From a virus, in the IMG/VR virus record IMGVR_UViG_3300042882_001578, positions 1-45,290 of that record: 45,290 bases of DNA. The stretch is one strand, 5' to 3'. The notes beneath the pieces are model-generated. The model did not search any database. It saw only the letters and a list, made by a program, of their open reading frames with translations, and was not told where the DNA came from. Shown here piece by piece: positions 5,972-45,102 of the stretch. Each line of letters begins with the position of its first letter. Position 1 is the first letter of the stretch. A program made the translations under genes and the position numbers.

Positions 5972-6384
5972 TTATTGAATGTTTTCATATAGTTATGGTT
6001 ACTCAAAAATATTGGTGATTTAAAAAATATTAATGATATCAATAAGATATAAAGATGAGTCATGTGGGTGTTTGTAAAATTTAATGCCTTGTTATTGAGA
6101 TTCCTTATTAAAATCAACAAGTTATAGAAATTTAAGCTGTTAAGGAAATATTAATAAATTACAGGGGTAAATGAGTAATGAGTAATGAGTAATGAGTAAT
6201 GAGTAATATACATTTTATTATTATTATATTTTATTAACAATTAAATAATATATATATCTATATGAAAAATAAGGAGAAACTAGCTTGTGTAAGAGTTTAT
6301 TCGGGGTTATTGGGTTAGTTAGGCCTCCCACATCCCTTGGTGGCTATGGGTTCTTAAAGAAAATGTTCAATTATTGGGTGAAAT
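5972..6384. other. AT-rich noncoding region, candidate replication origin
   Basis: 413 bases with no credible gene. The sequence is very AT-rich, with long runs such as TTATTATTATATTTTATTAA and ATATATATATCTATAT, a short tandem array at 6173-6207, and one further GGTTAGTT (6313-6320) like those at 3303-3430. It lies directly after the primase-helicase. Repeats beside an AT-rich unwinding stretch resemble phage origins; this is inference. Confidence 0.4.
6173..6207 (+). repeat. five tandem copies of GAGTAAT
   Basis: Five perfect head-to-tail 7-bp units (35 bp), immediately followed by an AT-rich tract. The heptamer also reads as ATGAGTA, so it creates several nested start/stop pairs (ATG AGT AAT GAG TAA) that cannot make a useful protein. 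It could be an iteron-like binding array or a polymerase-slippage expansion. Confidence 0.8.
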
Positions 6385-6807
6385 ATGAGTAGAATGAGTA
6401 AGACAAAAGGGGCAAACGGCGAACGAGAAGTAGCGAAATTGATTCAACCCATTGTGGACAAAGTGTACGCGGAGAAGGGACTCCCGAGTCCAGCTATCCA
6501 GAGGAACTTGACTCAGACTCGAGGTGGTGGTTTTGATTTGGATGGATTGGATTGGATAGCGATTGAAGTCAAGCGATGTGAGCAGTTGCAAGTGAATAAG
6601 TGGTGGGAACAAGCCGTCCGCCAAGCTGGTAAGAGTAGAGTGCCAATTTTGATCTATCGACAGAATAGAATGAGATGGTCGGTTTTCATGAGAGTGAGAC
6701 TAAAAACAGGGGATGGCTTGGGCTATTTGACCCGCGGAGAAGTCTCACTCGAAGCCTTCCTTTTCTGGCTGGAAAAAAGGTTGAGGCATGAACTAGGAAA
6801 GGGTTGA
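6385..6807 (+). CDS. PD-(D/E)XK nuclease, Holliday-junction-resolvase-like
   Basis: 140 aa. The pattern KGANGEREVAKLIQP, RNLTQTRGGGFDLDGLDWIAIEVKRCEQL, then VNKWWEQAVRQA is the RecB/archaeal-resolvase-like fold used by short phage resolvases. Glu of NGERE, Asp of GFDLDGLD and Glu-x-Lys of IEVKR are the expected metal and catalytic residues. It would cut branched DNA made during recombination-dependent replication. A second ATG three codons in (6394) is possible. The end of the gene overlaps a strong promoter for the small-gene ladder. The fold is convincing; the substrate is inferred. Confidence 0.7.
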   Translation: MSRMSKTKGANGEREVAKLIQPIVDKVYAEKGLPSPAIQRNLTQTRGGGFDLDGLDWIAIEVKRCEQLQVNKWWEQAVRQAGKSRVPILIYRQNRMRWSVFMRVRLKTGDGLGYLTRGEVSLEAFLFWLEKRLRHELGKG

Positions 6808-6831
6808 CCTTGAATCAAATCTCAGTATAAT
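6804..6831 (+). promoter_or_regulatory. strong sigma70 promoter for the small-gene ladder
   Basis: TTGACC (5 of 6), a 16-nt spacer and a perfect TATAAT. The -35 overlaps the stop codon of the resolvase-like gene. The start would be near 6838, giving a leader of about 20 bases to the GGAGGA ribosome site of the gene at 6859. Confidence 0.72.
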
Positions 6832-6858
6832 GGATTCATGTTTTGGAGGAATGAGTAA

Positions 6859-7098
6859 ATGAGTATTCAAGAGGATCTTAGATGGGCAGGGGAGTCAGGG
6901 GAGTTCGCCAACGCGGCGGAACTACTCCGGTACGTGGCTGCTATCAATCCTCTAGTAACCAGAAAGCAGTTTATCACGGCCTGTTCCGATTCAGGATACA
7001 GATCTAACACCGCTGCCAATCGGTTCCGCGAATCCCGTTTATGTAGCCTGGAGTTTGAACCTCTCCTAAGCATTACACCAGATGGATGTCTGGTATGA
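6859..7098 (+). CDS. hypothetical small protein
   Basis: 79 aa, function not recognised. The segment NAAELLRYVAAINPLVTRKQF continuing to a DSGYRSNTAANRFRESR stretch is helical and basic and could be a small DNA-binding fold. It is the first gene after the strong promoter at 6804-6831. GGAGGA lies eight bases before this ATG; an earlier ATG at 6851 makes only a 3-codon peptide overlapping this start. Confidence 0.65.
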   Translation: MSIQEDLRWAGESGEFANAAELLRYVAAINPLVTRKQFITACSDSGYRSNTAANRFRESRLCSLEFEPLLSITPDGCLV

Positions 7099-7346: not shown

Positions 7347-7498
7347 GAAAACAAAAACTACGGATGCATACTTACCGGGAACCTTATGTTTATGCAACAG
7401 AGGTGATTGTAAATAAGATGCGGGTGGCATTCCGTCATCCAGAACGGTTGACTAGTATGCGGATGGGCTCCGCTTTTGCTTGGGAGCAGATGAAATGA
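7343..7498 (+). CDS. small basic hypothetical protein
   Basis: 51 aa, rich in Arg, Lys and Met (starts MRKQKLRMHTYREPYVYATE, ends AWEQMK). It overlaps its neighbours by ATGA on both sides, with AAGGAGG just before the start, so it is probably translated. Function is not recognised. Confidence 0.5.
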   Translation: MRKQKLRMHTYREPYVYATEVIVNKMRVAFRHPERLTSMRMGSAFAWEQMK

Positions 7499-7743
7499 GT
7501 GGATTAATCAAGATTGTTAAGTACCAGGGTAAACGAGGCGGTTTCGCTACTCATGAAACTACTCTTTACCGAGTGGATGTGAAAGGTGAAGATAATTCGA
7601 TCCGGTACGGGAACCATTATGCTGAGGAAAAGTATGCAGTTGAAGAAGCTAATAACTGGCGAGACTTCACTGGCTGGCCTGTTCAGCGAATAGAACTTAA
7701 ACAGGAATATAGAGAAATCGAAGTCGTGGTAGCTTCTTTTTAG
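7495..7743 (+). CDS. hypothetical protein
   Basis: 82 aa. The start at 7495 uses the ATGA overlap and a GGAG 13 bases upstream. The sequence has beta-rich features (FATHETTLYRVDVKGEDNSI) and an EEANNWRDFTGWPV segment common in small phage proteins. Function unknown. Confidence 0.5.
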   Translation: MSGLIKIVKYQGKRGGFATHETTLYRVDVKGEDNSIRYGNHYAEEKYAVEEANNWRDFTGWPVQRIELKQEYREIEVVVASF

Positions 7744-21561: not shown

Positions 21562-22941
21562 ATGGCTACAAGTACTTTTTATACCATAGAGCAGATTGGA
21601 CCAAAACAGAGTTTTACTCCTGAGGGTTTTTTGCTTTGTGAAGATGTACCTGTGGCCAGGACCGGAATGATGATTTACGGCCCAAATGAAACTCCAGTTG
21701 AAGCAGGTCCAGATGGCCTTGTAAAGATTCACCGTGAAGATGCCGATGTTTTCAGACCGGAGACTATTGCCAGCGCTCAAGGTAAATCAGTTACTAATGA
21801 CCATCCCGATGACGATGTCACACCAAACCTATGGAAAGAACTTAGCCATGGAATAATGCTTAACGTCCGCAGAGGTGTTGGCGCTTTTGATGATTTGCTT
21901 TTAGCTGATCTTTTGATTACAACAGAGGATGGTATAAAAGCAGTTCAAGAAGGCAAACGGGAGGTTAGCTTAGGTTATGAGGCAGACTATGTCCAATTAG
22001 CCCCAGGTATAGGCAAACAAACAAACATTATCATTAACCATGTAGCCTTAGTAGAACAAGGTAGATGTGGCCCACGTTGTGCAATTAAAGACGAGAAACC
22101 TGAAATTTCAAAAACAGAGGTAATTATGAAAACCAGAAAGACAAGAAGCATCCATGACAAACTAGCTTCCCTGCTGCGTCGTTCGTTTAAAGCGAAAGAT
22201 GAGGCGGAATTGGAAGATGTTATCCAAGACGCTGCAGAACTAGAAATTGGGGCAGTTTCTGGTGATGAAGAATTTGAACCACCGGTTGAGAAAGAGGATG
22301 AGGATATCCACATTCATGTTGATGGTCAGGATGATGGTGAAGATTTCCGTACCAACGATGACGAGTTATGGGAACAGAATGCTGCAGAGCATGCCGCTCT
22401 TTGGGAAGCTATCCATGAGTTAAGAGCTCAACTGGGTGGTGGAGTCGAAGATTCCGATCCAGACCTGGATATAAATGAGCAATCCTCAGAGCAGGCTATG
22501 TTGGATGAAGTTCCTGAAGGTTTGGAAGAAGAAGCTGCCAAAGCCCAAGATTCTCGTTACTTAGGTGAATCCTACCGAGACACCGTAGCTCTTGCCGAGA
22601 TCCTGGTTCCAGGTATTCAGCAACCGACTTTCGATAGTGCCACAAAACCAATGCAAACCTTTAAAAAGATTTGTGGTTTCCGTCGCAAAGCTTTGGACCT
22701 GGCTTACAAGGACAGTACCTCTAAACCCATCCTGGACGATTTGTTGCTTGGTAAACCGATGAACACTAAAAACATGACCTGCGACGCTGTTCGCACTTTG
22801 TTTAATTCAGCCGCTGCTACAAAACGCCGGATGAATAATAGTTCCGGTACCCGGGATTCTATTCAATTACCAAAATCACCTAAACCTTTGACTTTGGCTG
22901 AACTGAATGCTCGCAACCGCGAAAAATACGCTGTAAAATAA
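21562..22941 (+). CDS. prohead protease (DUF2213-like) fused to scaffold
   Basis: 459 aa. Residues 1-175 are the protease: RTGMMIYGPNETPVE, ITNDHPDDDV-type segment (TNDHPDDDVT, catalytic His), then GKREVSLGYEADY (Ser) and NHVALVEQGRCGPRC. Residues 189-459 are a highly charged, helical scaffold region. Inside it lie D-I-H-I-H-V (248-253), K-A-K-D-E (210-214) and K-A-Q-D-S (327-331). The protease should cleave scaffold and capsid proteins during maturation. It sits just before decoration and capsid genes. The fusion and an internal start (22126) parallel phages where protease and scaffold share one gene. Confidence 0.82.
   Translation: MATSTFYTIEQIGPKQSFTPEGFLLCEDVPVARTGMMIYGPNETPVEAGPDGLVKIHREDADVFRPETIASAQGKSVTNDHPDDDVTPNLWKELSHGIMLNVRRGVGAFDDLLLADLLITTEDGIKAVQEGKREVSLGYEADYVQLAPGIGKQTNIIINHVALVEQGRCGPRCAIKDEKPEISKTEVIMKTRKTRSIHDKLASLLRRSFKAKDEAELEDVIQDAAELEIGAVSGDEEFEPPVEKEDEDIHIHVDGQDDGEDFRTNDDELWEQNAAEHAALWEAIHELRAQLGGGVEDSDPDLDINEQSSEQAMLDEVPEGLEEEAAKAQDSRYLGESYRDTVALAEILVPGIQQPTFDSATKPMQTFKKICGFRRKALDLAYKDSTSKPILDDLLLGKPMNTKNMTCDAVRTLFNSAAATKRRMNNSSGTRDSIQLPKSPKPLTLAELNARNREKYAVK
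22126..22941 (+). CDS. probable scaffold protein from internal in-frame start
   Basis: Met189 of the protease-scaffold gene is preceded by AGAGG with five bases of spacing, and this is exactly where protease homology ends and charged helical sequence begins (MKTRKTRSIHDKLASLLRRS). It would give a 271-aa free scaffold, like lambda Nu3 inside gene C. The nested start is inferred. Confidence 0.4.
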   Translation: MKTRKTRSIHDKLASLLRRSFKAKDEAELEDVIQDAAELEIGAVSGDEEFEPPVEKEDEDIHIHVDGQDDGEDFRTNDDELWEQNAAEHAALWEAIHELRAQLGGGVEDSDPDLDINEQSSEQAMLDEVPEGLEEEAAKAQDSRYLGESYRDTVALAEILVPGIQQPTFDSATKPMQTFKKICGFRRKALDLAYKDSTSKPILDDLLLGKPMNTKNMTCDAVRTLFNSAAATKRRMNNSSGTRDSIQLPKSPKPLTLAELNARNREKYAVK

Positions 22942-24667: not shown

Positions 24668-25093
24668 ATGGCTAAAGCGCAAGCAAAAAAACCATGGGAA
24701 GCAACTGAAGCAGCGGCTGAAGAGGCCGCTGTACCTTCGACCAATCCCGTTACCGAGGAAGCTACCGATGTAGTTTCTGAGGAACCTGTGGTTGAATCAG
24801 TTGTCCCTGAGGAACCTGTGGTTGAGGAAGTAGTAGATTCGACTGATGAAGCCTCTGATACACCTACGGTTGAAGAAGATGCAAGTGAAGGTAAAGAACC
24901 TGAATCGGTTCCTACCCCAGCCCTCATTGGTGAGTTATTGCATACTGTGGTTGTTGTAGTTCCTAAGCAATACATCTTGAACCTTGATCACCATAAAAGT
25001 GTGACCTACCAAGCAGGTACTCAACGAATGGAACGTTCCCACGCAGATCATTGGTGGTCAAAAGCCAATGGTGTAACTATTTTTGTAGGCTAA
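24668..25093 (+). CDS. acidic-linker protein after the capsid gene
   Basis: 141 aa. Residues 10-85 are very acidic, with repeated EEPVVE units (two close copies of TGAGGAACCTGTGGTTGA in the DNA). Residues 90-141 form a compact domain (VPKQYILNLDHHKSVTYQAG, then WWSKANGV) seen in small phage head or neck proteins. The acidic arm could bind basic capsid-interior surfaces. AAGGAG precedes the start. Function unknown. Confidence 0.6.
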   Translation: MAKAQAKKPWEATEAAAEEAAVPSTNPVTEEATDVVSEEPVVESVVPEEPVVEEVVDSTDEASDTPTVEEDASEGKEPESVPTPALIGELLHTVVVVVPKQYILNLDHHKSVTYQAGTQRMERSHADHWWSKANGVTIFVG

Positions 25094-25094
25094 T

Positions 25095-25256
25095 ATGGAA
25101 GGCCAAGTCGATAAACCAGTTGGCCTTCCAATAAAGGATCTTGCTCAGGTGGAAGAGAATGATGTTTCTTTTTTACCTGTAGCAGAATCCCTATCTCTTC
25201 AACAGCTGAACGATAATAACAGAAAGTATTGGGAACAAGGGGAAAACCATGACTAA
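25095..25256 (+). CDS. small hypothetical protein with start codon inside a hairpin
   Basis: 53 aa, not found by length cut-offs. The C-terminal LSLQQLNDNNRKYWEQGEN resembles a short motif (..A.NRKYW...) seen in other phage proteins. It overlaps the first HIH-tag gene by eight bases. Its ATG lies at the edge of an 11-bp perfect hairpin (25096-25130) that should hide the start. Confidence 0.5.
   Translation: MEGQVDKPVGLPIKDLAQVEENDVSFLPVAESLSLQQLNDNNRKYWEQGENHD
25096..25130 (+). promoter_or_regulatory. 11-bp perfect hairpin over a start codon
   Basis: TGGAAGGCCAA and TTGGCCTTCCA pair perfectly around a 13-nt loop. The 5' arm begins at the second base of the ATG at 25095. No T tract follows, so it is more likely a translation-control or RNA-processing hairpin than a terminator. 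Confidence 0.55.
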
Positions 25257-25467
25257 ACATATTCACGTCCACATTGGCAAAAAGAAAACCACTGATGCTG
25301 ATTATTCCTATAATGTTGGTCAAGCTACGTTGGCCCTGGATAAAGCCCACTATGAACTTTTATCTGCTCAAAGAAGCGATGATATTGACCAAGATGGTGA
25401 TTCCAGAATCGAGGATGCTTTGAAACTTATCCGGAAGGCAAAAGATATTGTACTCAGGATAAAGTAA
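25249..25467 (+). CDS. HIH-tag small protein 1 (putative internal head protein)
   Basis: 72 aa. Begins MTKHIHVHIGKKKTTDA: alternating His residues on a short strand, a lysine run, then K-T-T-D-A. The remaining 56 residues form a two-helix hairpin (YNVGQATLALDKAHYELLSA and EDALKLIRKAKDIVLRIK). The same start occurs in four other genes of this window whose bodies differ. It lies between capsid-associated and connector genes. I infer a capsid-targeting tag removed by cleavage after Asp16; function of the mature part is unknown. Confidence 0.65.
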   Translation: MTKHIHVHIGKKKTTDADYSYNVGQATLALDKAHYELLSAQRSDDIDQDGDSRIEDALKLIRKAKDIVLRIK

Positions 25468-25929
25468 ATGACCATTACACCCCAACAACTTCGCTCCGAT
25501 TATCCGGAGTTCGCCAGTACAGTAGCCTATCCAAACTCTGCTTTGGAGTATTGGTTAAATCTGGCTTACTTGATGTTGAATGCACCTCGTTGGGGCAGTA
25601 TGTTAGATCTTGGAGCGGCTTTATTTGTGGCTCACCATGTTACCATTGAAGCGCGGAACCAAGCGGTTGCAGCTAATGGAGGTATCCCAGGTGAACAAAC
25701 TGGGCCTCTTTCGAGCAAATCGGTTGACAAAGTATCAATTAGCTATGATACTGGTTCTGGGATTCAAGCCGATGCAGGCCATTGGAACATGACCGTTTAT
25801 GGGACTCGCTTTATTCGGTTGATGAGAATGTTCGGAGCTGGGCCAGTACAAGTAGGTATTGGCCAAGTTCCTTCTGGTTCTGGTCTTGGTTGGCCAGGCC
25901 CAATTGGTTCAAATATTTACGGGAACTGA
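25468..25929 (+). CDS. head-tail connector, DUF4054-like
   Basis: 153 aa. LRSDYPEFASTVAYPNSALE, a helical middle with ALFVAHHVTIEARNQ, and VDKVSISYDTG match the DUF4054 adaptor family found after capsid genes in myophages. It would bind the portal ring. The start is joined to the previous stop, with AGGATAAAGTAA supplying the ribosome site. The Gly-rich tail (SGSGLGWPGPIG) is typical. Confidence 0.75.
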   Translation: MTITPQQLRSDYPEFASTVAYPNSALEYWLNLAYLMLNAPRWGSMLDLGAALFVAHHVTIEARNQAVAANGGIPGEQTGPLSSKSVDKVSISYDTGSGIQADAGHWNMTVYGTRFIRLMRMFGAGPVQVGIGQVPSGSGLGWPGPIGSNIYGN

Positions 25930-25930
25930 G

Positions 25931-26488
25931 GTGAACCTCAAGAACGCCTTGCAGATGACCTTGGATCTACTGCCGGATGTGAAGATCAGGCTTTCGTCCT
26001 TGGTTGATGCGGAAGTTCTTGTTGGTGTTCCAGAAGATAATACCCAACGTCAGGATAATGGTCCGACCAATTCAATGCTGGCCTATATTCATGACAACGG
26101 TTCCCCGATTAGGAATATTCCAGCCAGGCCTTTTATGAGGCCTGGAATAGCTTCTGCTAAAAGTGATGTTATTCGGGCTCTTAAGTGGGGAGCGGATGAA
26201 GTTTTGGATGGTAATGAAAACGCCGGCCGTTTGGCTTTACATAAAGCCGGATTAATAGCTCAAGCTAAAATACGCGCAGCTATTAATGAAGGAATCCCAC
26301 CTCCACTAGCCGACTCTACCTTGAAAGGTAGGATAAGAGCGCGAAGAGGGGTAAAAGGTGCCACCGCGGAATTAGCTGCTAGAAAAGCCGGGGAAATGCC
26401 TTCCCTTGGGTTGGCTAAGCCTTTAATTAATACCGGGCAGCTTCGCAACTCAATTAACTACATTGTAAGGAAAAAGAAAAATGGCTAG
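25931..26488 (+). CDS. tail-completion / virion morphogenesis protein (HK97 gp10-like region)
   Basis: 185 aa from GTG 25931, one base after the previous stop (TGAGGTG). The reading frame is open back to 25859, but that part only shadows the connector gene. Features: VGVPEDNTQRQDN, SMLAYIHDNGSP, IPARPFMRPGI and a basic C-terminus with LINTGQLRNSINYIVRKKKN, the pattern of gp10/Mu G-type neck proteins where PARPF.RPG and TG.L..SI recur. Ends eight bases inside the next HIH-tag gene. Confidence 0.72.
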   Translation: MNLKNALQMTLDLLPDVKIRLSSLVDAEVLVGVPEDNTQRQDNGPTNSMLAYIHDNGSPIRNIPARPFMRPGIASAKSDVIRALKWGADEVLDGNENAGRLALHKAGLIAQAKIRAAINEGIPPPLADSTLKGRIRARRGVKGATAELAARKAGEMPSLGLAKPLINTGQLRNSINYIVRKKKNG

Positions 26489-26516
26489 ACATATTCATAT
26501 TCATATAGGAATGAAA
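26447..26516 (+). repeat. duplicated block, copy A (gene end plus HIH tag)
   Basis: From AACTCAATTAACTACATT through the HIH-tag codons this block is closely similar to 26963-27032, including an identical GTAAGGAAAAAGAAAAATGG stretch. In copy A it is the 3' end of the tail-completion gene and the start of HIH protein 2. Confidence 0.7.
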
Positions 26517-26918
26517 ACTACCTCCAGAGTTCGAGATTCGGAAGATCCTCGAGTCCTCGAAGGATTGGCTAACCATGCTATTGAAAAATTACGATCAGGT
26601 AACACCGGGTTTCCATTTGAAAATGTCGCTAACCAAGCCATTAAGTCTTATCAAACAGCCTCAGAACTATATACAAACCAAAATGATCCACAAGGGCAAC
26701 GGAGATGCAACCTTAAGGTCCAAGCTATTAAAAAAGCTCTTTCAGAATATGAAAGATTAGTGGGTGATGTTAAGAGGCTTTCGGCTTTATCGATGGAAAT
26801 ATACAAAAAAGAATCTTCTGGGGCTGAGGTTCCAAGAGCCGAAAAATTACGAGTCTCTAGGGAGTACAAGGCAGCGGAAGCTTCCCTACGGAAACCGTTT
26901 CAAAATATCAGTATCTAA
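26481..26918 (+). CDS. HIH-tag small protein 2 (putative internal head protein)
   Basis: 145 aa. Begins MARHIHIHIGMKTTSRVRDS; the tag is kept but the K-x-x-D-A site is altered to a longer K-T-T-S-R-V-R-D-S. The body is entirely helical and charged (NQAIKSYQTASELYTNQNDP, AIKKALSEYERLVGDVKRLS), like a TPR/coiled-coil repeat. It overlaps the tail-completion gene by eight bases; the ribosome site (GTAAGGAAAAAG) is inside that gene. Function unknown. Confidence 0.62.
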   Translation: MARHIHIHIGMKTTSRVRDSEDPRVLEGLANHAIEKLRSGNTGFPFENVANQAIKSYQTASELYTNQNDPQGQRRCNLKVQAIKKALSEYERLVGDVKRLSALSMEIYKKESSGAEVPRAEKLRVSREYKAAEASLRKPFQNISI

Positions 26919-26962
26919 ATAATACCATACTATATTGACTAAACAAATGACCGTTACTCAGT

Positions 26963-27032
26963 AACTCAATCGACTATGGTGTAAGGAAAAAGAAAAATGG
27001 CTAAACATATCCACATTCACGTAGGAAAAAGA
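26963..27032 (+). repeat. duplicated block, copy B (fossil gene end plus HIH tag)
   Basis: AACTCAATCGACTATGGTGTAAGG followed by the shared GAAAAAGAAAAATGG leader. The noncoding part still reads V-R-K-K-K-N-G-stop, the exact C-terminus of the tail-completion protein, so it is a leftover of that gene carried along with the tag. Confidence 0.7.
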
Positions 27033-27275
27033 AAAACCACTGATGCTTTCAATCCTCAATCTATGATAGCCCTTTGTAGATCCGCAATCAAGAATGCAGC
27101 AGCTTTCCAAGAAGCTGCAGGCAATAGACCTGGTGCGGCTAAAGTTTACGCGGAGGCTATTTCCGCTTATGAGAAAGGGATGTCGGCTGCAAGAAAAGGG
27201 AATGAGGATGAAAGCAAATCTTATTATACCAAAGGTAACAACCTCACTAGGCAAGCACATACCATAGCAGCTTAA
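26997..27275 (+). CDS. HIH-tag small protein 3 (putative internal head protein)
   Basis: 92 aa. MAKHIHIHVGKRKTTDA is followed by a 76-residue helical body (CRSAIKNAAAFQEAAGNRPG, AAKVYAEAISAYEKGMSAAR), a TPR-like hairpin loosely similar to protein 1. Both flanks are fossil sequence: the upstream leader is the 3' end of the tail-completion gene, and 27331-27349 repeats the 3' end of HIH gene 1. It looks like an inserted, recombined cassette. Confidence 0.63.
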   Translation: MAKHIHIHVGKRKTTDAFNPQSMIALCRSAIKNAAAFQEAAGNRPGAAKVYAEAISAYEKGMSAARKGNEDESKSYYTKGNNLTRQAHTIAA

Positions 27276-27281
27276 AGGTTT

Positions 27282-27311
27282 GAATACAGATGCTTGAGTA
27301 TATCTGTATTC
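27282..27311 (+). other. 10-bp perfect hairpin after HIH gene 3
   Basis: GAATACAGAT and ATCTGTATTC pair around a 10-nt loop, seven bases past the stop codon. No T run, so probably an RNA-stability or processing element, or a trace of the insertion event. Confidence 0.5.
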
Positions 27312-27346
27312 TTGCAGAAAAGAAGAAACCCTTGAGGATAAAGTAA

Positions 27347-27790
27347 ATGCCATTTCTAGATGTCACCTCAGTTTTAACTGATCCGGACTTCGCGGATAGT
27401 TTTACAGTAGAGCGCCGTTCTGAGGTGGTGGATGAATACGGCCGGTCAATTCAGACTATCTTACCTTTCAGGACTTCTGGTGTAGTGACTGTTGGGTCAC
27501 CAAATGATCTAGACAGGCCCGAAGAATATGAAAAGTTCACCAGATCCATTACTGTGGTCACTAAAGCTCGTTTACGGGGAGCGGTTCAAGGCTTCCAGCC
27601 AGATGTAATCGTTTGGCGGGATAGTAGGTTCGTGGTGAAAGCTATAGACTTGTATCCGCATTTTGGGGCTGGTTTTTATCAAATCGAAGCCGAGTCCATG
27701 GAAATGGTAGATAATAATACCGATCCGACTTCCGAAGGGAAGTTCATTTTTAATAATGTAGCTAATGCAGGCTTCGTTGGAGTTTTATGA
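27347..27790 (+). CDS. neck/head-tail joining protein
   Basis: 147 aa. FTVERRSEVVDEYGRSIQTI, then GVVTVGSPNDL and SRFVVKAIDLYPHFGAGFYQ: a beta-barrel-like protein similar to head-tail joining and stopper proteins in this gene position. Starts at an ATG with AGGATAAAGTAA in front, the same 15-mer that precedes the DUF4054 gene. Overlaps the next gene by ATGA. Confidence 0.6.
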   Translation: MPFLDVTSVLTDPDFADSFTVERRSEVVDEYGRSIQTILPFRTSGVVTVGSPNDLDRPEEYEKFTRSITVVTKARLRGAVQGFQPDVIVWRDSRFVVKAIDLYPHFGAGFYQIEAESMEMVDNNTDPTSEGKFIFNNVANAGFVGVL

Positions 27791-28116
27791 AACTTAATGT
27801 CTTAGATGCTTCTGGGGTACCTCAGCAATTACTGGTCGAAGGATTAGAGGCGATTACTGATAAATCAGGTTCCATTACCGCAACCGGTGTCTCCCAAGTC
27901 GCTATTGCGGCTAATAGTGCCCGGTCTGGATTTCTGATCCAGAATAGAAGTCTGAATCCGATGCATATTAATGACCTCGGAGCAGCTACTGTCGGGGCTA
28001 GTTCTTTTACTTTGGCCCCTGGCGAATGCTTTCCACCAGCCGGCTACCCAATAACTGCCAATGCGATCAATATCCTTGGTACTGTTTCAGATATATTTTC
28101 CGCGAGGGAGTGGTAA
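27787..28116 (+). CDS. small beta-rich virion protein
   Basis: 109 aa. SQVAIAANSARSGFLIQNRS, then PMHINDLGAATVGASSFTLA, GYPITANAINILGT: a jelly-roll-like fold common in small phage structural proteins. Coupled by ATGA at its start and TAATG at its end to HIH gene 4. Exact role unknown. Confidence 0.55.
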   Translation: MKLNVLDASGVPQQLLVEGLEAITDKSGSITATGVSQVAIAANSARSGFLIQNRSLNPMHINDLGAATVGASSFTLAPGECFPPAGYPITANAINILGTVSDIFSAREW

Positions 28117-28538
28117 TGGCAATTCATATTCATATTGGAAAAAAGAAGGCTAAAGATGCTGTTAAGTACGTCAGTAATATCGATATCCGCCTTCCGAATG
28201 GTAAAGTGGTCCCGAACGGGACTGTTTTCTATAAAATTGGGCCAAACCTTTATCGGCCTTATTTTGCCAGACCGGGAGAGTCAGATGTCCGCATCTCTCC
28301 AGATAGATTCGTTATTGAGGATAGTAAAGCTAAAGATGCTACTCCATCCGCTTTTTTGAAAAAGCACCCAATGTGGAGTGAATCCGATTACTCCTATTTT
28401 AAAAACAAAGGGTATACGGACAAGGAGATTTTAGCTCTTTGGGATCGAGATCAAAAAAGTGGTGGAGGCCCGGTTAATCATAAACCTATTCCAAATGTGC
28501 TCGGCAGGATAAACGGTAAAATTGTAACTAATGCCTAA
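28116..28538 (+). CDS. HIH-tag small protein 4, possible two-part precursor
   Basis: 140 aa from ATG 28116 (TAATG overlap); an upstream in-frame start at 28026 only shadows the previous gene. MAIHIHIGKKKAKDA is the tag with K-A-K-D-A. Residues 16-70 are a beta-rich domain (NGTVFYKIGPNLYRPYFARP). Then a second K-A-K-D-A occurs, followed by a helical domain (SESDYSYFKNKGYTDKEILA) known as a short module in other phage proteins. If the motif is a cleavage site, one precursor would give two mature peptides. Confidence 0.63.
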   Translation: MAIHIHIGKKKAKDAVKYVSNIDIRLPNGKVVPNGTVFYKIGPNLYRPYFARPGESDVRISPDRFVIEDSKAKDATPSAFLKKHPMWSESDYSYFKNKGYTDKEILALWDRDQKSGGGPVNHKPIPNVLGRINGKIVTNA

Positions 28539-30632: not shown

Positions 30633-31076
30633 ATGACCACTTACTCATTTTTAGAGGTCAATGCGGCGCTTGTTGGTCCAGGTGGAGCAATCAACTTGGG
30701 GCAAGGGGCAGCTGCCTCGGAAGAAGGTATAAGCATTGATCCAACTAGTCCAATCAACACCATGACTATTGCCGCGGATGGTACTCCAATGCAATCCCTT
30801 GGTGCCGATAAATCCGGGGTTGTCACCGTTACCTTGTTGAAAACCTCTCCTACTAATGCAAAGCTGTCAGCTATGTATGCTTTGCAAACAGCCTCTCCGG
30901 CTAGCCATGGACAGAACACCTTAACGGTGGCTTTGACTCATCTCGGTGACGTAATTACTTGTCAGCAAGTAGCTTTTCAAAAAGCCCCAAGTTTGAAGTA
31001 TGCGAAAGAAGGTGGTACTAATGACTGGGTTTTTGACGCCGGTATCATTGATCGTACGCTTGGTGGATTGATCTAA
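30633..31076 (+). CDS. tail tube protein (DUF3277-like)
   Basis: 147 aa. TYSFLEVNAALVGPGGAINL, SEEGISIDPTSPINTMTIAA, GTPMQSLGADKSGVVTVTLL, then NDWVFDAGIIDRTLGGLI: a standard DUF3277 tube subunit, following the sheath gene as usual. AAGGAG nine bases before the ATG. Its last base is the first of HIH gene 5's ATG. Confidence 0.9.
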   Translation: MTTYSFLEVNAALVGPGGAINLGQGAAASEEGISIDPTSPINTMTIAADGTPMQSLGADKSGVVTVTLLKTSPTNAKLSAMYALQTASPASHGQNTLTVALTHLGDVITCQQVAFQKAPSLKYAKEGGTNDWVFDAGIIDRTLGGLI

Positions 31077-31300
31077 TGGCTATCCATATCCATGTTGGAA
31101 AGAAAACGGTTGATGCTGATCCAATAAGTACCCGGAACCTTGATCCTGAGCAGGTTAAAAAAGAAAGGCGGGATGATAAAAGAATCCTTAGCAATATCTC
31201 ACAAAATCTAAAACAATTGAGCTATTGGTCGAAACAAAAGGCTTCTCGTATTGAAACCGAAATCGATAAATTACTTGACCAGATAGATGACCGCCAATGA
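31076..31300 (+). CDS. HIH-tag small protein 5 (putative internal head protein)
   Basis: 74 aa. MAIHIHVGKKTVDA is the tag with K-T-V-D-A. The rest is one long charged helix pair (NLDPEQVKKERRDDKRILSN, LKQLSYWSKQKASRIETEID). It is wedged with 1- and 4-base overlaps between tube and chaperone genes, a place where an extra gene is unusual. Function unknown; grouped with the other four by its N-terminus only. Confidence 0.62.
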   Translation: MAIHIHVGKKTVDADPISTRNLDPEQVKKERRDDKRILSNISQNLKQLSYWSKQKASRIETEIDKLLDQIDDRQ

Positions 31301-42360: not shown

Positions 42361-45102
42361 TTATTCAACTAGCTCTTCAACATGGCCCCAATCTGGCCCA
42401 ATATCGCAATCCGCAATAATTGGAATCTTCAATGGGATGGCGGTTTCCAACACCCTTTTCATTTCCCTGAAAGCTTCATCCTTTCCACCCGGATCGCTAA
42501 AATCCAATTCATCATGAACCGTTAAGCGTGGGGTACCGGTCTCTGCGAAGATCCCATCTTTCCAGCATATCCACATAGCCTTTTTCATTAAGTCAGCAGC
42601 GGAACCTTGTAGGCGCCGGTTTAAGGCTTTATGTGTTTGTGCTCGGCGAATGTTCCCATACTTAAGAATGGCTTGATCATAAGGCAGTGGAATGGTATCC
42701 CGACCCCAATTGTCCGGTTCCCATAAGTCAAACCTAGATTTGCGCCCAAGAATCGTACGAATAACTCCTGTGGTCAAAGCCTCCTGTATGGCCTCCTCCA
42801 TAGTGGCCTTGGCGAAAGGTGCTCCTTCATGGTAGGCCGCAAACAGTTTTTTACCCTCAGATGCCTTCAATCCGAGGCCAGCTGATAAGGCATCCACACC
42901 CATCCCATAGATCAAACCGAAGTTGATGTTTTTAACAGCCTTTCGACTTAGTTCTTGACCAGTTTGCCTAGTAACTAATTCCTGGGTCATCACATGGTAA
43001 TCTGTATGCGGGTCACGATTAAAGATGTCCCGGACTTCTTGGCTCATTTTACCTACTGCGAAATGGGCCAGGAACCTGTACTCTACTTGACTATTATGGG
43101 AGCATAACCCCTCTGCAATGAATGTTTTGTGATCCGTTTCAACGGCTATGACCTCCTGTTCCCCGAGGTACTCAATAGCGAGCACCTCATCCGCCGGTCC
43201 CCAATTCTGGACATTCACTCCTTCGATCAATTTTTCTGGAACTTTTGCCAAGAGCCTGAGTGGGCGCACCTGTCCTAAAAAGCGCCAAATTGCATCACGG
43301 CCACCTGTTAAACGCAAGAGCCACACTCCTCCTTTATTCAAATGCTCCTCGTAGGCGAAATCGTATTTATCGAGAAGACGTTTAACTTCCGCATAGCACA
43401 AACCTTCTTTCTGTCCGACACCGACAATACCTGAACTTATCCAACCTTCTCCATCGAAGAATCCGGAGAGCCACCCAAGGTCATAATTTTCTGTAAGGTT
43501 CTCCCAAGGCTCTACCGCGCGCAGGATGCTTGCTCCAACCTTCAATGTCTCGGTAAACATCCAACGCGCCGGCGCATTCTTGTTCTGGCCAGGCCGGCCA
43601 AGCCACCGGTGTTTATCCGAACAGATGATTGAACCTTTGTTTGTCATAATTCGATAACATGGCCGGGTAAGCTTTTTCAATGCTGTAACTATTGAATTTC
43701 GAAGGTAACGCCTGCCTTTATCCGCTTGAGCCCCGGAATATTTTTTGTCTTCATCGAAAGCAACTATTGGCATACCAACCTCTAGGCTACAGGCTGGAAT
43801 CCAACGTAGATCAGGGGTCAGTACCCTAGTTTCTGGGGCGACACAATAATCATATTTGCGCCAGCACATGTGTTCATAATCAGGGGTAAAAATTCCTCGT
43901 ACCATAGGGGCTAATTCATCGTCTCTAGATGGCAAATTCTGAAGGTTAGGGGTAGAACTGCTGAACCGGCCGGATCGGGTTCCGCCTTCATCTCCGCGAA
44001 GCAGATGGAATTGGCCATATACCTTACCATTGACATGGGAATCGAGAACATAGGACTCCACAAAGGTTCCACGAAGTTTTGCTAGTTTTCGGATTTCGTT
44101 GATACTTGCAGAGATTGGATGATTGACTTCTTTGAGGAATCCTTTTGTGAAACTCGGGTTCCCTTTATCCGTCCGCGGGTAAGGAAGGCCGGCTTCATCA
44201 AAAGCCTTGGCTAAACTGGCTGAAGCATTAATTTCCACGTGGAAACCAACAAGTTTATCCAGTTTTTGCTGCTCCTGGTCTTCTTTGGCTTTTAGTTTGT
44301 CCCGCAGTTTTTCAGCGGCATCCACATCCACGGACACCCCTTCAAAGCGCATGTCGATAGTCAAATAGATAAGGTCACATTCCATGCGGAATAAATCGTA
44401 GAGGCCTTCCCGCCAGATCAACGGATATAATACTTCAGCTAACCGTAGAGGGAGATCGGCATCACTTTCAGCATATGGGCCAACTAGCCTGGCCGGTGCC
44501 CGATAAATGTTTGCCCTTTGTTTCCCAGTAATAGCCCCACCGTAATAATCGGAACACCACCGGTAAAGAAGAGAAGACTCTTTCCCCTCACCTAGATATT
44601 TTGTGGCCAGTGTTTCTAAAGCCACTTGAGCCCGTTCATCCAGTAGAGCTTCAGCGAATTGAACATCAAACAATTCACCTCGAACAATGACACCCTCTTG
44701 GCGGAGCCACCCGATATCGTAGGTTAGGTTAGCCCCGATTTTAGGTTGTTTTGGATTACCTAAAGTATCCCGGAGCCAGGCTAATACCGGTTCAACTGGC
44801 CAATTATACTCCGGTTCCACTTCGTGGCGAAGCGGGTAATACCACCGCCCACCTCCAGGTACCCCAATAGAAACTCCAACTAAATGACCTTTGCCACGAG
44901 CCCATCCTGGCCCATTGTCCTCCAGTTCCGGGTCATAGGTTTCCACATCAATGGCAATAGCCTTTGCTGAAGATAGATCTGGTAAATAAGTAGGTGGTAA
45001 CCATCCGGTATCTGGGATCGAAGGCATGACCCGGACGGTTTTGTTCCGACCAGTCGCTTGAACATCTTCCCAAAATAAACCTACAGCATCGACTCTAGCC
45101 AT
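42361..45102 (-). CDS. polA: family A DNA polymerase with 3'-5' exonuclease, interrupted by an intein
   Basis: 913 aa precursor; 662 aa after splicing. Exonuclease: AIAIDVETYD (Asp-x-Glu near residue 51) and GANLTYDIGW. Polymerase: GGTRSGRFSSSTPNLQNLPS, motif A DYSQVEYR split between Tyr419 and Ser671, motif B (RKAVKNINFGLIYGMG), motif C (TVHDELD near 862). The insertion of 251 residues at motif A begins with Cys420 and ends His-Asn, followed by Ser. This is the replicative polymerase; the phage needs splicing to make it active. It lies downstream of the 53-codon gene with no clear ribosome site of its own. Confidence 0.92.
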   Translation of the reverse strand: MARVDAVGLFWEDVQATGRNKTVRVMPSIPDTGWLPPTYLPDLSSAKAIAIDVETYDPELEDNGPGWARGKGHLVGVSIGVPGGGRWYYPLRHEVEPEYNWPVEPVLAWLRDTLGNPKQPKIGANLTYDIGWLRQEGVIVRGELFDVQFAEALLDERAQVALETLATKYLGEGKESSLLYRWCSDYYGGAITGKQRANIYRAPARLVGPYAESDADLPLRLAEVLYPLIWREGLYDLFRMECDLIYLTIDMRFEGVSVDVDAAEKLRDKLKAKEDQEQQKLDKLVGFHVEINASASLAKAFDEAGLPYPRTDKGNPSFTKGFLKEVNHPISASINEIRKLAKLRGTFVESYVLDSHVNGKVYGQFHLLRGDEGGTRSGRFSSSTPNLQNLPSRDDELAPMVRGIFTPDYEHMCWRKYDYCVAPETRVLTPDLRWIPACSLEVGMPIVAFDEDKKYSGAQADKGRRYLRNSIVTALKKLTRPCYRIMTNKGSIICSDKHRWLGRPGQNKNAPARWMFTETLKVGASILRAVEPWENLTENYDLGWLSGFFDGEGWISSGIVGVGQKEGLCYAEVKRLLDKYDFAYEEHLNKGGVWLLRLTGGRDAIWRFLGQVRPLRLLAKVPEKLIEGVNVQNWGPADEVLAIEYLGEQEVIAVETDHKTFIAEGLCSHNSQVEYRFLAHFAVGKMSQEVRDIFNRDPHTDYHVMTQELVTRQTGQELSRKAVKNINFGLIYGMGVDALSAGLGLKASEGKKLFAAYHEGAPFAKATMEEAIQEALTTGVIRTILGRKSRFDLWEPDNWGRDTIPLPYDQAILKYGNIRRAQTHKALNRRLQGSAADLMKKAMWICWKDGIFAETGTPRLTVHDELDFSDPGGKDEAFREMKRVLETAIPLKIPIIADCDIGPDWGHVEELVE
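43093..43845 (-). mobile_element. intein with LAGLIDADG segment in polymerase motif A
   Basis: Polymerase residues 420-670 (251 aa). Starts Cys (CVAPETRVLTPDLRWIPACS, block A), has a block-B-like segment (IICSDKHRW), one clear LAGLIDADG-type motif (LGWLSGFFDGEGW near 43441-43485), block F (DHKTFIAEGL) and ends Cys-Ser-His-Asn before Ser. The N- and C-terminal splicing residues are intact. Only one LAGLIDADG copy is obvious, so homing activity may be reduced or depend on a dimer. Confidence 0.88.

Follow-up and report, generated by a model that had tools for sequence, protein, structure and literature searches.

Copied gene ends on both sides of an HIH-tagged gene suggest recombination at the gene junctions of a phage morphogenesis operon

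The accessory genes of phage head operons usually reveal only their present position; here traces of an arrival are preserved, and one relative seems to have been caught midway. The question raised by the locus is how a small gene, HIH gene 3, came to lie between the tail-completion (TC) gene and the gene found immediately after TC in most relatives. The window, a 45,290-base IMG/VR virus record, carries on its plus strand a contractile-tail morphogenesis operon in the order DUF2213 protease-scaffold, decoration-like, major capsid protein (MCP), connector, TC, phrog_939, tail terminator, sheath, tube, chaperone and tape measure (position and the annotation of relatives supply the names decoration, sheath, tube, chaperone and tape measure). 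Five small genes in it, starting at 25249, 26481, 26997, 28116 and 31076, bear an "HIH tag" of about 17 residues, H-I-H-I-H followed by K-x-K-D-A. We consider it likely that non-allelic recombination left the scars seen around gene 3, and that tagged genes have been inserted where two genes of the operon meet. Events of this kind are already known; their setting here was not found described in the literature searched. The observation itself, made in a first-pass annotation of the sequence, is real and was largely well read.

HIH gene 1 (72 aa, 25249-25467) is followed by the connector gene (25468-25929, identified by family match as DUF4054/phrog_302) and by the TC or Neck1 gene (25931-26488, identified by its match to phrog_222, E 2.5e-38, and by an alignment), the last codons of which also form the ribosome site of HIH gene 2 (145 aa, 26481-26918), which overlaps the TC stop. 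Then come HIH gene 3 (92 aa, 26997-27275) and the gene for the phrog_939 head protein (27347-27790), identified by its phrog match and by the gene order of relatives. HIH gene 4 (28116-28538) and HIH gene 5 (31076-31300, recognized as an ORF with an HIH tag) lie farther along. A perfect 10-bp inverted repeat, GAATACAGAT, with a 10-nt loop and without a T run, is seen at 27282-27311 between gene 3 and phrog_939; an Rfam search matched no family, this repeat included.

A copy of the TC end stands in front of gene 3. The functional TC 3' end (26447-26488, the repeat continuing to 26522) and the left scar (26963-27004, continuing to 27038) are 80% identical over 76 nt, 26447-26522 against 26963-27038, and enclose an exact 24-mer (26464-26487 = 26980-27003) that is the only dispersed exact repeat of at least 20 nt among 81 loci spanning MCP to sheath. 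The first copy runs from the functional TC end into gene 2, the second from the leader of gene 3 into the start of its tag. In translation the functional end reads NSINYIVRKKKNG-stop and the scar NSIDYGVRKKKNG-stop, the common reading being NSI[N/D]Y..VRKKKNG-stop. The earlier claim that the gene 3 leader spells the last codons and stop of TC is thus borne out. Its description as a noncoding leader needs amending: the stop of the scar (27002-27004) falls within gene 3's own start (ATGGCTAA), so the left repeat is a TC::HIH junction and not purely a leader. The TC of most close relatives ends in approximately R-K-K, and a KNG-stop extension is common to the functional end and the scar. This extension exists because the TC frame enters the ATGGCTA of an HIH gene, and its presence in the scar therefore indicates descent from a junction that was already joined; the gene 3 leader is a TC 3' end already fused to an HIH tag.

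The residues of the scar beyond the exact repeat firmly support the TC origin. On a profile built from 92 TC ends of other loci, the scar's LSNSIDYGVR scored 15.1 bits and the next best leader 10-mer 8.4, among 34,648 10-mers from 898 leaders, the scar's own leader included. The leader with the second-best score, in locus L076, was examined as a second TC scar and rejected, being the end of a connector gene in another frame. That leader also holds a mini-ORF, MAHIHRGR, immediately 5' of its HIH gene; in 379,926 bases, such HIH mini-ORFs number two outside known genes on the forward strand (three in all) versus four on the reverse strand.

On the other side of gene 3, the stretch before phrog_939 is a second occurrence of a junction sequence found elsewhere in the operon. 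The 15-mer AGGATAAAGTAAATG occurs at 25456-25470 and at 27335-27349, exactly alike and at these two places only, ending at the start codon of the connector gene in the one case and of phrog_939 in the other, where it now serves as ribosome site and start. By simple arithmetic about one 15-mer pair is expected somewhere in 45 kb, so that such a pair is unremarkable when taken alone. The first-pass annotation had read both copies as L-R-I-K-stop, the end of gene 1; the 15-nt identity is exact, but the L lies outside it and uses a different codon (CTC vs. TTG). We regard the right repeat as a real repeat of a gene junction, which gene 1, TC or an earlier state of gene 3 may have supplied. That gene 1 was its source and not its recipient is not established, since in relatives L003 and L004 the TC itself ends in L-R-K-K-stop (TTGAGGAAGAAGTAG) beside the start of the next gene, close to TTGAGGATAAAGTAA in the window. 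It is possible that the right scar is a displaced TC end, though we do not prefer this; the codons before it (K-K-K-P-L-R-I-K) are unlike a TC end.

Relatives were gathered with TC, connector, MCP and HIH gene queries, giving 193 loci besides the window, and 125 sequences in all after overlaps had been removed by shared 31-mers. The TC-phrog_939 junction was compared in 96 loci: 78 have no HIH gene there, with less than 100 nt between the two genes, 10 have HIH genes and 8 have some other insert. The gene order without the insert, which the first-pass annotation had proposed to look for in related phages, thus exists. On an MCP tree of 84 rows, the nine with an HIH gene at the TC junction require at least eight changes; insertion and loss at this junction have recurred. 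Where an HIH gene comes directly after TC, its ribosome site lies within the TC end, and because the last TC codons are the ribosome site of the following gene, an HIH gene that moves carries a TC end along with it. The scar of a TC end is found only in the window and in L016, the other HIH inserts at this junction being clean. No phage in which gene 3 directly follows TC was found in the viral_contigs and phages sets searched. Genes 1 and 2 had no relative in viral_contigs, where an exact search with the junction 28-mer also gave 0 other matches; gene 3 matched three loci there, two by the tag alone and one weakly, and in phages had a single match at E 2. The DNA of the region matched nothing in phages and plasmids.

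The relative L016, which like the window has a second TC end between two HIH genes, appears from its sequence to be the same architecture at an earlier stage. Its TC (6478-7053) is followed by a decayed HIH copy, a TC fragment in which TC nt 139-279 are fused to 538-576, and an intact HIH gene (7366-7593). The join of the internal deletion is CTAAA, shared with both parents, and the repeated parts are 87% and 88% identical. L016:7060-7593 has the look of a tandem TC + HIH gene duplication midway through decay. Among 121 loci, significant self-repeats touching HIH genes occur only in the window, L016, L032 and L041. Of the cassette duplication and shuffling that had been read from the window, it holds that gene 3 sits between a copied TC end and a copied junction, and L016 supplies an independent case of a duplicated TC and HIH gene with decay.

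The 125 loci contain 69 HIH ORFs, a count in which at least two false rows were kept, and at E 0.01 36 of 68 bodies cluster with no other. The bodies of genes 1, 2 and 3 have no detectable similarity to one another, and the tag and leader DNA is about 80% alike despite this; since the body of gene 3 is unlike those of genes 1 and 2, plain duplication is insufficient. The gene 3 tag is 82% identical to that of gene 1 over 51 nt (42/51, ranking third of 2,346 pairs). A tag from another phage reaches 39/51 against it, so that tag identity alone is weak evidence. In four within-genome pairs with similar tags, identity drops to background right after the tag, which together with the unlike bodies suggests that bodies are exchanged behind tags or that a segment came from another phage. 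Related bodies occupy different junctions in different phages, that of gene 4, for example, matching one between g141 and the connector in L045 (E 1.4e-22). The likeness of tag codons is 0.53 within genomes vs. 0.44 between, and homogenisation of tags within genomes was set aside, the excess being so small. Of the proposed recombination among tag-bearing loci, the recombination is supported, but crossovers at the tags themselves are not established. A second motif, E-x-K/E-H-P-R-x-x-x-G-K/Q-F, is found right after the tag in L105:11240-11759, L195:139-483 and L100:2139-2483.

The sequence of events that we propose is that a further TC-end::HIH segment, supplied by a related phage or by a tandem copy arising in place, would have been joined behind gene 2, and that the redundant TC sequence would then have been deleted, the bases kept being those that form the ribosome sites of gene 3 and phrog_939. 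Bodies behind the tag may have been exchanged or have diverged fast, which would be why tag and leader are still alike and the bodies are not. Insertion from a donor seems to us slightly ahead of duplication in place. Phage T4 is described as amplifying segments between microhomologies and deleting elsewhere (PMC9391042).

In-place tandem amplification, as a sub-version of this explanation with its source in the same genome, would take the block gene 1-connector-TC-HIH as the unit, the extra connector and TC copies having collapsed and genes 2 and 3 being diverged copies of one gene; it is possible, but clearly more likely wrong than right. L016 is exactly such a case, and its two HIH copies are alike along their length (169 nt at 87%), as those of the window are not. 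Before the TC scar, at 26936-26957, lie what may be scraps of the starts of gene 1 and of the connector, collinear with the block, which hint that the whole block could once have been duplicated. None of 3000 shuffles yielded such a collinear pair, in a test chosen after the matches had been seen; the scraps are weak singly, single matches of like strength turning up in 16 of 60 shuffles, and the connector match is not specific. The main difficulty for amplification in place is that the bodies of genes 1, 2 and 3 are dissimilar though the DNA of tag and leader has kept its likeness.

Preferring recombination with exchange or divergence of bodies, we give very little weight to an assembly artefact, in which two strains, one with gene 2 and the other with gene 3 behind TC, were wrongly joined. 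The window is a single-copy public virus record without reads, and its repeat has 24 nt without a mismatch, as such an error would have it. Joining at a shared k-mer would not, however, yield a cut-off TC end that lacks the remainder of a second TC, which is what the scar is; the operon is otherwise intact, and L016 shows the same architecture independently.

There is also the question of how unusual the matches are for sites of translation initiation. Among the 44 start sites of the window, two pairs share 17 and 12 nt of identity upstream of the start codon and all others at most 5, and none of 2000 column shuffles reached 12 nt. When all loci are taken together, at least 12 nt are shared by 2 of 5,714 within-locus pairs, both flanking gene 3, against 1 of 617,713 pairs formed between loci from different genes. 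That there was no recombination, and that both repeats are just similar ribosome sites selected for strength and stop-start coupling, is the least probable reading of all, as the shared stretches do include ribosome sites and start codons but the 17- and 12-nt runs are outliers among these pairs and the left match extends upstream of the ribosome site into TC-specific codons. This selection, which the first-pass annotation had named as what could overturn it, accounts for neither repeat and is refuted for the left one by the pair counts, the shuffles and the TC-end profile.

A function for the tag is suggested by the scaffold. The DUF2213 protease-scaffold protein of the window (21562-22941; PF09979, E 2.4e-48) carries an IHIHV motif in a linker, the HIH codons beginning at 22309. 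H[IV]H[IVL] is present in 67 of 103 DUF2213 proteins, always at one place, the linker between the protease and scaffold parts, and in none of 12 other core families tested. The consensus of 38 HIH-bearing DUF2213 proteins includes AFKAKDA and GDTHIHIH; [KRT]DA is found within the first 32 residues of 24/69 HIH ORFs, vs. 3% of 3,160 ORFs. In the structural model of the window protein (pLDDT 80.9) the HIH motif falls in a low-confidence linker. Comparison of this model places the protease domain closest to T4 gp21 and the herpesvirus proteases; residues 14-166 align with gp21 in VIA-align at Z 10.6 and rmsd 2.7 over 130 residues (unrelated rows, Z 5.5), and the gp21 match comes from VIA-align, a Foldseek search with the model giving no match at E 0.001 or better. 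Herpesvirus proteases have a Ser-His-His triad, which His81, Ser136 and His160, invariant in 38/38 DUF2213 proteins, would suit.

HIH-bearing scaffolds accompany HIH genes in 30/32 loci, against 25/50 (Fisher p 2.7e-5, 43 of the 125 loci having been dropped beforehand), and the tags of the two exceptions are apparently false. The trait tracks the tree, independent pairs being without significance, and the co-occurrence is therefore not counted as proof. The cultured Edwardsiella phage vB_EpM_ZHS has one tagged protein, ZHS_5, and an HIH-bearing scaffold; the scaffold of Burkholderia phage Magia has no HIH motif. The motif common to scaffold and tag suggests that tagged proteins are loaded into the prohead, as proteins with the capsid-targeting sequence (CTS) are in T4; the tagged proteins are probably head cargo, and the comparison suggests a capsid-loading tag working like that of the T4 internal proteins. 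A wider joint reading, somewhat more apt to be wrong than right, would have the tag copying the K-x-K-D-A and H-I-H-I-H of the phage's own scaffold linker, loading bodies into the prohead and, together with the leader, doubling as a recombination handle, as a system of exchangeable cargo distinct from the T4 CTS. Cassettes would then move between junctions and bodies swap behind the tag, TC-end scars marking some of these events, in a whole lineage of mostly uncultured contractile-tailed phages, the cargo perhaps being injected counter-defence proteins. As far as the literature was searched, no description of the HIH tag was found. If the tag does load heads, it would provide a simple rule by which injected phage proteins, some of them perhaps directed against host defences, could be recognized from sequence in many uncultured genomes, and a portable means of loading proteins into the heads of another phage group.

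Among known systems, morons are accessory genes between conserved genes, with their own promoter and terminator. The HIH genes resemble them as extra genes at conserved operon junctions in some relatives only, but take their ribosome sites from the 3' end of the gene before them; consensus scans found no plus-strand promoter-like site at 26447-26997, other promoter types lying outside the scan, and no plus-strand terminator-like site at 25000-27726. The internal-protein genes of T-even phages were reportedly the subject of Repoila 1994. The T4 internal proteins Ip1-Ip3 are loaded into the prohead by the CTS (PMC3012670, PMC5694885), and, once injected, T4 internal proteins inhibit restriction enzymes (PMC12373910). 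They resemble the HIH genes in having very diverse bodies, a short conserved N-terminal sequence and several genes per phage (PMC3012670, PMC5694885, PMC12373910), and the window phage would also share with T4 a prohead protease of predicted gp21 fold. Unlike the T4 CTS proteins, the HIH genes, known here from sequence alone, lie inside the head-tail operon and share their motif with the DUF2213 scaffold. At the T4 tifA locus, tandem repeats were made at microhomologies and deletions followed, which matches L016; those events were recent and selected in the laboratory, whereas the event in the window is old, with short ends left and bodies changed (PMC9391042).

The DUF2213 profile also matches the solved scaffolding protein chain 9b40_G (E 5e-13), which we infer to be from an entry for Pseudomonas phage Pa193, by the shared name gp24 and the residues EMSGE in both. 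In Pa193, a helix hairpin of gp24 lies inside the capsid at the five-fold vertices (PMC11042391). Unlike the window scaffold, 9b40_G has no clear HIHIH motif in the aligned linker.

Two features lie away from the morphogenesis genes. A short tandem AATGAGT repeat occupies 6170-6200, 5' of the gene at 6385. On the minus strand, 42361-45102 encodes a DNA polymerase ORF, seemingly with an intein (starting CVAPETRVL and ending near SHNS, as judged by eye from the translation) that includes a possible homing-endonuclease part.
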